Source: an uncultured Spirochaetales bacterium
GTDB lineage: Bacteria > Spirochaetota > Spirochaetia > Sphaerochaetales > Sphaerochaetaceae
Assembly (NCBI GenBank): GCA_944393005.1
Contig: CALXYO010000001.1
Span: forward strand, 1 to 64,000
Length of the DNA: 64,000 nt
Reading direction: 5' to 3'
Each line of letters begins with the position of its first letter. Positions within the stretch are counted from its first letter, which is position 1. The position numbers and the translations under genes were made by a program. Shown here piece by piece: positions 42,798-44,228 of the stretch. The notes under the pieces were generated by a model that had not been told where the DNA came from, made no database searches, and saw only the letters and a list, made by a program, of their open reading frames with translations.

Positions 42798-42869
42798 GCC
42801 GGAATAGCTCAGGGGTAGAGCGGCTCACTCGTAATGAGCAGGTCAAGGGTTCAATTCCCTTTCCCGGCT
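42798..42869 (+). tRNA. tRNA-Thr (anticodon CGT)
   Basis: A 72-base cloverleaf. The acceptor arm GCCGGAA pairs with TCCCGGC with one A-C mismatch. The anticodon stem is GCTCA/TGAGC, with loop CTCGTAA and CGT at 42830-42832, decoding ACG. The T-arm is AAGGG/CCCTT around TTCAATT. The CCA end is not encoded. Confidence 0.92.
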
Positions 42870-42914: not shown

Positions 42915-42968
42915 CATACAGGAATATTCCGCAGCATGAGAAAAGTTCTGCAACAGGGATATTGTGAG

Positions 42969-42998
42969 TTGAATTTTCCGCCAGGGCACATGTAGAAT
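42969..42998 (+). promoter_or_regulatory. Candidate promoter of the G-tract lipoprotein
   Basis: TTGAAT (42969-42974), 18 bases, TAGAAT (42993-42998). The -10 overlaps one of two palindromic GAATATTC motifs (42922-42929 and 42995-43002). Confidence 0.45.
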
Positions 42999-43045
42999 AT
43001 TCCATAGAAAACTGTTCTCCCCAGCATTTGTAGTGAAGCGGTGAT

Positions 43046-43055
43046 GGGGGGGGGG
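43046..43055 (+). repeat. Poly-G tract (10 G)
   Basis: A homopolymer of ten G ends ten bases before ATG 43066 of a lipoprotein gene. It lies in the predicted leader and overlaps the position of the ribosome-binding site. It is the longest G-run I noticed in the window. Confidence 0.95.
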
Positions 43056-43065
43056 AGTATAGGAA

Positions 43066-43821
43066 ATGTCAGAATTATCGTTCGCAGGAAAAATCACTGC
43101 TGTTCTGGTTTGTGTCTTATTTTTGTTTGTATCCTGCGATATTTCTTTTGAAGATGAAATCGTTGATGAGGTTAATGTTTCTGTCAGCAGGGCGCTGGTT
43201 CCTGACTATGATGATATTGACTACAGCACTGTCACAATGACAAAAAACTCATCAGGAGCCCGGATAGTTTCATCTCAGTATACTGATGAGACATTTTTGT
43301 TTTCCACAGGTTCCTTCCTTGAAGGCATTTGGACAGTAAGAGCTGATGCCTATACGGAAAAGGAAAATGGAAGCTGTATCAGGGTTGCAACAGGAACCAG
43401 CTCCATCCGCATGGAGGCGGGAAAAGAATATGATGTTCATGTCGTAATCGACACATTTGTCATTCCTGATCTTACATTCACCCTTGTTCTTCCCGAAGGT
43501 TTTGATGATTCTCTGCAGAAGTTGTACGCAGTATGGACACTCAGCAATACAGAAGGTGGTGATGTATTCAAGATTGACTGGGAAAATGCATTTGTGCTGG
43601 ACAGGACAGGGAGTAATGATTTCAAGCTTTTAATTGACGCTGACAATCTGACAGGAAATCATGACAGGCTTGATATCGGAGAGTGGACGCTGAATATCAC
43701 CGTTGCGGATACGAATGATACATCTGCCCAGAAAATGGTCGGCAGCGGAAGCAGTGAGTTCTCTGTCAGACCTGCTGATGATCCGGTTGAAAAGGTTGTG
43801 GAAATTTCTTTAAGTGAATAG
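43066..43821 (+). CDS. Putative lipoprotein, 251 residues
   Basis: Family not recognised. A lipoprotein signal (KITAVLVCVLFLFVSC, Cys about residue 24) is followed by an acidic segment and a beta-rich domain with repeated Thr/Asp strands (YDVHVVIDTFVIPDLTFTLVLPEGF), perhaps an immunoglobulin-like or adhesin-type fold. A G10 tract just upstream suggests switchable expression. The only AGGAA motif abuts the ATG, so the G-tract may itself serve as the ribosome-binding element. Confidence 0.78.
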   Translation: MSELSFAGKITAVLVCVLFLFVSCDISFEDEIVDEVNVSVSRALVPDYDDIDYSTVTMTKNSSGARIVSSQYTDETFLFSTGSFLEGIWTVRADAYTEKENGSCIRVATGTSSIRMEAGKEYDVHVVIDTFVIPDLTFTLVLPEGFDDSLQKLYAVWTLSNTEGGDVFKIDWENAFVLDRTGSNDFKLLIDADNLTGNHDRLDIGEWTLNITVADTNDTSAQKMVGSGSSEFSVRPADDPVEKVVEISLSE

Positions 43822-43906
43822 CATCTGCTGATATGCGGATCCTCTGTTCTGCTTGACAATCTTCTCAAAAGCTGGTTTATGTCTGAACCATAATAATTGC
43901 AGATTA

Positions 43907-43991: not shown

Positions 43992-44228
43992 ATGGGAGAA
44001 GTATATAACGGAAAAGTCCAGCCGATTGACATGCTTATACCGATAGTCACTGAAAGAAAACCAGGCCCTTCCGTTCAGATCGGGTCTCCGATCGGAAGTG
44101 ACGTAGCAGGTTACTATCAGTCGATATTGGCTGACGACTTCTATAATTATCTTTATTTCAACCAGTTCGCCGGATTTGACTTTGATGAGGAGTATGATCT
44201 TGACGAAGACGGCATGGAATTGTATTAA
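43992..44228 (+). CDS. Small acidic hypothetical protein, 78 residues
   Basis: Not recognised. Soluble, with a Pro/Gly-rich centre (ERKPGPSVQIGSPIGSD) and a strongly acidic C-terminus (DFDEEYDLDEDGMEL). GGAGGG at 43978-43983 gives a good ribosome-binding site. It lies eight bases before tsaD, so it is probably cotranscribed with it. Confidence 0.7.
   Translation: MGEVYNGKVQPIDMLIPIVTERKPGPSVQIGSPIGSDVAGYYQSILADDFYNYLYFNQFAGFDFDEEYDLDEDGMELY

Follow-up and report, generated by a model that had tools for sequence, protein, structure and literature searches.

A G10 tract preceding an accessory lipoprotein gene of a gut spirochaete, and the poly-G tracts of the lineage

The question raised by this locus is whether a run of ten guanines (G10), lying directly upstream of the gene for a predicted lipoprotein, allows that gene to be switched by slippage, as a first-pass annotation had proposed. 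The window, that is, the whole stretch of 64,000 nucleotides that was analyzed, belongs to a genome of 2.26 Mb in 20 contigs (G000). Judged from sequence matches of its congeners, this is a gut spirochaete congeneric with Candidatus Aphodenecus, a taxon assigned to the Spirochaetales by NCBI and named in a chicken gut microbiome paper (PMC8035907).

The annotation had the tract ending ten bases before the start codon, and this placement was confirmed: AGTATAGGAA separates it from the ATG at 43066-43068 on the forward strand (Table 1). The locus thus carries a homopolymer of at least 8-9 G near a gene start, although the assembly was built from short reads, in which homopolymer lengths may be miscounted. 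The tract is the only run of at least seven G in the window, where the longest other G run is 6. Runs of at least ten G appeared in 1, 2, 0, and 1 of 200 simulated windows under Markov models of order 1, 2, 3, and 4, respectively, each trained with the tract excluded; of 100 dinucleotide shuffles, a more lenient test, 8 had at least as many 8-G matches as observed. A G10 is therefore unlikely to arise by chance (0-1% per 64 kb), a figure to be read against the approximately 35 windows of this size in the genome.

Table 1. Features of the G10 locus (positions within the window)
Feature	Position	Strand	Basis
tRNA-Thr (CGT), left neighbor of the slot	42798..42869	+	
937-bp segment comprising leader, tract, and gene	42915..43851	+	comparison with sister species G012
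TTGAAT-18-TAGAAT, sole promoter-like site upstream	42969..42998	+	promoter scan
TCTCCCC, potential pairing partner of G tract and GGAG within leader RNA	43016..43022	+	RNA fold prediction
Upstream ATG, its G being the first G of the tract	43044..43046	+	inspection
G10 homopolymer	43046..43055	+	motif scan, run count, simulations
GGAG, Shine-Dalgarno core on the 3' edge of the tract	43054..43057	+	sequence inspection
251-aa predicted lipoprotein, lipobox LFVSC	43066..43821	+	ORF, inspection, family and ortholog searches

The N-terminus of the encoded protein (MSELSFAGKITAVLVCVLFLFVSC, followed by DIS) has, by inspection, a typical bacterial lipoprotein signal, with a signal peptide and a lipobox Cys near the N-terminus; we infer a surface location from this lipobox only. 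The protein matched no Pfam or NCBIfam family, and its single-sequence structure model, being of low confidence (mean pLDDT 51), was set aside. An ortholog search among 61 relatives returned weak partial N-terminal similarity at most, and none was found in the genome collection. The segment that carries the gene is bordered by the tRNA-Thr terminator on one side and by a 78-aa ORF on the other, and in the sister species G012 its place is taken by 47 bp, with flanks 93-95% identical and the neighboring PmbA gene 91% identical between the two genomes. In the congener G009, the slot after PmbA is filled by an unrelated lipoprotein gene whose own poly-G tract lies in a promoter spacer; in most other congeners, it contains no lipoprotein gene. 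Because the segment is absent from G012, the G009 gene is unrelated, and no ortholog was found, the window gene is, on comparative grounds, an accessory insertion. The 78-aa ORF itself (MGEVYNGKVQPIDMLIP..., 43992-44228) is acidic, lies upstream of tsaD, and is kept genus-wide, with no family match.

How could a change in tract length act on this gene? The first-pass annotation had seen no other good ribosome-binding site, overlooking the GGAG that the last two Gs of the tract form with the following AG, a good core at 8-nt spacing. Since this GGAG stays 8 nt from the ATG at any G count, the geometry excludes slippage that alters Shine-Dalgarno spacing, and the simple ribosome-site-spacing idea fails. 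A frame switch through the upstream ATG was likewise rejected: at G10, this codon and the gene differ in frame; at G9 or G12 they share it, but a TAG just before the gene's own ATG prevents fusion, such that no register gives an uninterrupted in-frame product. An RNA hairpin serving as a clean length-dependent switch was discarded because the predicted opening energy of the leader, calculated for 6-14 G, ranged from 4.7 to 7.4 kcal/mol with no trend; nor was the leader fold more stable than its shuffles (z -0.26). The promoter-like site upstream would, if used, place G10 in the 5' UTR; it does not stand out from shuffles (4 sites in the region vs 3.0 expected). The promoter scan around the tract found no -35/-10 pair bracketing G10, and a location within a promoter spacer was thus rejected for this locus.

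The wider lineage offers a much clearer picture. All tracts of at least nine G were listed in 16 congeners, and 98 of them were read in context, the genome-wide work consisting of pattern searches and selected stretches. A recurrent layout emerged, namely TTGACA, 6-10 nt, G9-G13, TANNNT, and then approximately 30-49 nt before a lipoprotein gene begins; a -35 and a -10 element accordingly flank many other tracts of the genus. TA directly follows 56% of the 98 tracts, compared to 5% of G4/G5 runs from the same loci, and the combination of TTGAC 13-22 nt before with TA after was found at 24 of the 98 but at none of 547 such runs. The -35/-10 spacer in these 24 has a mode of 16 nt and measures 16 or 17 nt in 13 of them. 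When 139 family genomes were searched, TTGACN{6,11}GGGGGGGTA (TTGACN{6,11}G7TA) had 79 matches, chiefly from three genera, vs 3 with a reversed control. For 38 of the 98 tracts, the adjoining 200 nt on the G-strand side contain a lipoprotein-like start; for 7, those on the mirror side do. Tracts of at least nine G in this genus and family are thus strongly associated with lipoprotein genes, mostly in promoter spacers, which suggests that the genes behind them are switched by DNA slippage.

The TTGACA-G9-TANNNT layout was also seen in many other, mostly host-associated bacteria among the matches listed, a set that has no control and includes chance matches. Among these, it is found several times within one and the same genome in uncultured Clostridia, Bacilli, Prevotella, and Rickettsiales (e.g., L256, L298, L270, and L291), where unrecognized poly-G phase variation is possible.

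Distances from tract to lipoprotein-like start form a main cluster at 31-49 nt and a small second one at 0-10 nt. The window tract falls into the latter, together with a tract at C1:128539, and hence belongs to a smaller start-codon class apart from the main promoter-spacer class. Poly-G at the start codon is in only modest excess before MKK/MKR-type starts (9 tracts vs 2 in the control). The C1:128539 tract, the best available stand-in for the window tract in a length comparison, takes the ribosome-site position before a lipoprotein gene that itself follows a gene for an outer-membrane-like protein. It is G11 in the window genome (L343) and G8 in the sister species G012 (L344); its orthologs in most other congeners have a GGAGG-type site instead. 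A length difference was also found at C6:100915, with G10 in the window genome and G9 in the G011 ortholog.

Contig ends lie 79-90 nt away from four of the seven tracts of at least nine G in the window genome, and each of the four adjoins an end of a repeated element whose termini are 24-bp inverted repeats (GTCTACCTTCAGGGGGTCAGYTCA). In the family, 26 ends of this element were collected from 8 genomes (the G000 contig ends L016-L019 and loci L368-L387) and typed as A or B by the sequence inside the repeat. After 3-4 nt, 12 of 14 type-A ends are followed by a G6-G11 run, as are both ends with a divergent interior after 4-5 nt; on the tract side, therefore, 14 of 16 ends land 3-5 nt before the G6-G11 of lipoprotein-type promoters. 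None of the 10 type-B ends has a G run; in several of their flanks, TTGAC is present on the strand that would lead into the tract. Matching 3-bp flanks (GAC, CTA, and GGG), for contig ends paired by inference, suggest 3-bp target duplications. The terminal sequence presumably resembles IS3-family ends. No transposase was found in the element, inside which the contigs end, and neither contigs C19 and C20 nor the initial 3 kb of C16 and C17 contain its ends. G012 has two of the interrupted sites in intact form (L147 and L151). Another genus of the family has a mini element of approximately 87 bp, with both inverted ends and no gene, placed directly before a G9 (L377:1430-1530). The element looks as if it has a target preference for poly-G promoters. 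It is about as probable as its opposite that gut spirochaetes of this family combine a multi-locus poly-G lipoprotein repertoire with a dedicated element homing to the tracts, one end of which would come to lie 3-5 nt before the G tract, between it and the -35, and would split the switchable promoter; the window tract would then be a start-codon-class tract that is unoccupied.

Poly-G systems of both layouts have been described. Treponema pallidum tp0126, encoding an OmpW homolog, has its tract in the -35/-10 spacer, for which 17 nt is the optimum, and transcription of this gene and of Neisseria meningitidis porA, which encodes an outer-membrane protein, is varied by slippage in the promoter spacer (PMC7864442). 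The main class of the lineage resembles both, tp0126 being likewise a spirochaete gene. The window tract, in contrast, lies outside any recognizable promoter spacer and serves a lipoprotein gene; porA, moreover, comes from an unrelated phylum. Closer in position is tp0381, whose poly-G also adjoins the annotated start codon, although it precedes a different gene and starts at -7, compared to -20 in the window. Up to ten lengths are known for tp0381, whereas the tract of tp0986, also at -7, scarcely varies (PMC7864442); a position near the start codon is therefore not decisive by itself.

We consider it an evenly balanced proposition that the window G10 is a slippage-prone tract of the lineage's lipoprotein poly-G phase-variation repertoire, acting on translation initiation. 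At most loci of this repertoire, a change in tract length would alter promoter spacing. At the window locus, where the lipoprotein gene is accessory, G10 would replace or extend its Shine-Dalgarno region, and a length change would affect how translation initiates, with the upstream UCUCCCC pairing with the tract and GGAG and the overlapping upstream ATG perhaps providing a second route. Should length matter at this locus, a translational route is the probable one, as no -35/-10 pair brackets the tract. On this reading, the tract would vary in length and the variation would change expression, at the level of translation. Phase variation of the tract is plausible, with the chances about equal either way, and the mechanism is more tentative. 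The idea of G-tract switching of lipoprotein genes thus holds up in part: the preference of the lineage's tracts for such genes and the G11/G8 difference at C1:128539 speak for it, whereas the fixed GGAG-ATG distance and the trendless opening energies speak against the ribosome-site mechanism. Very probably, the lineage uses this process mostly in promoters and not in ribosome sites.

A possible, though less probable, alternative is that an ordinary G-rich ribosome-binding site has drifted to ten Gs; it may slip, yet expression would hardly change because GGAG and its spacing are kept. Preservation of GGAG-N8-ATG at every tract length fits this account, as do the absence of a length trend in opening energy and the way in which poly-G at C1:128539 occupies the place of the congeners' GGAGG-type sites, but the rarity of G10 given the composition and the concentration of tracts of at least nine G before lipoprotein genes speak against it. 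A transcriptional role, with G10 in the spacer of an unrecognized promoter or near a transcription start, is improbable. The main class of the lineage and the T. pallidum tpr genes are of such a kind, and TATAGG does follow the tract (43058-43063); however, no -35-like hexamer lies 15-19 nt upstream of it, a -10 at this site would start transcription from the ATG or beyond it, and no promoter-scan match had the tract in its spacer. Least probable of all is a functionless chance homopolymer or an assembly artefact: the short-read assembly and the number of windows per genome leave some room for either, but all seven tracts of at least nine G in this genome occur in gene leaders or insertion-element junctions, in recurrent contexts.

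By itself, the window tract is a modest example of slippage-prone poly-G. If the wider reading is true, commensal gut spirochaetes, beyond the pathogens of the genus Treponema, would diversify their lipoproteins by poly-G slippage at many loci simultaneously, and an insertion element would exploit the poly-G tracts as landing sites.
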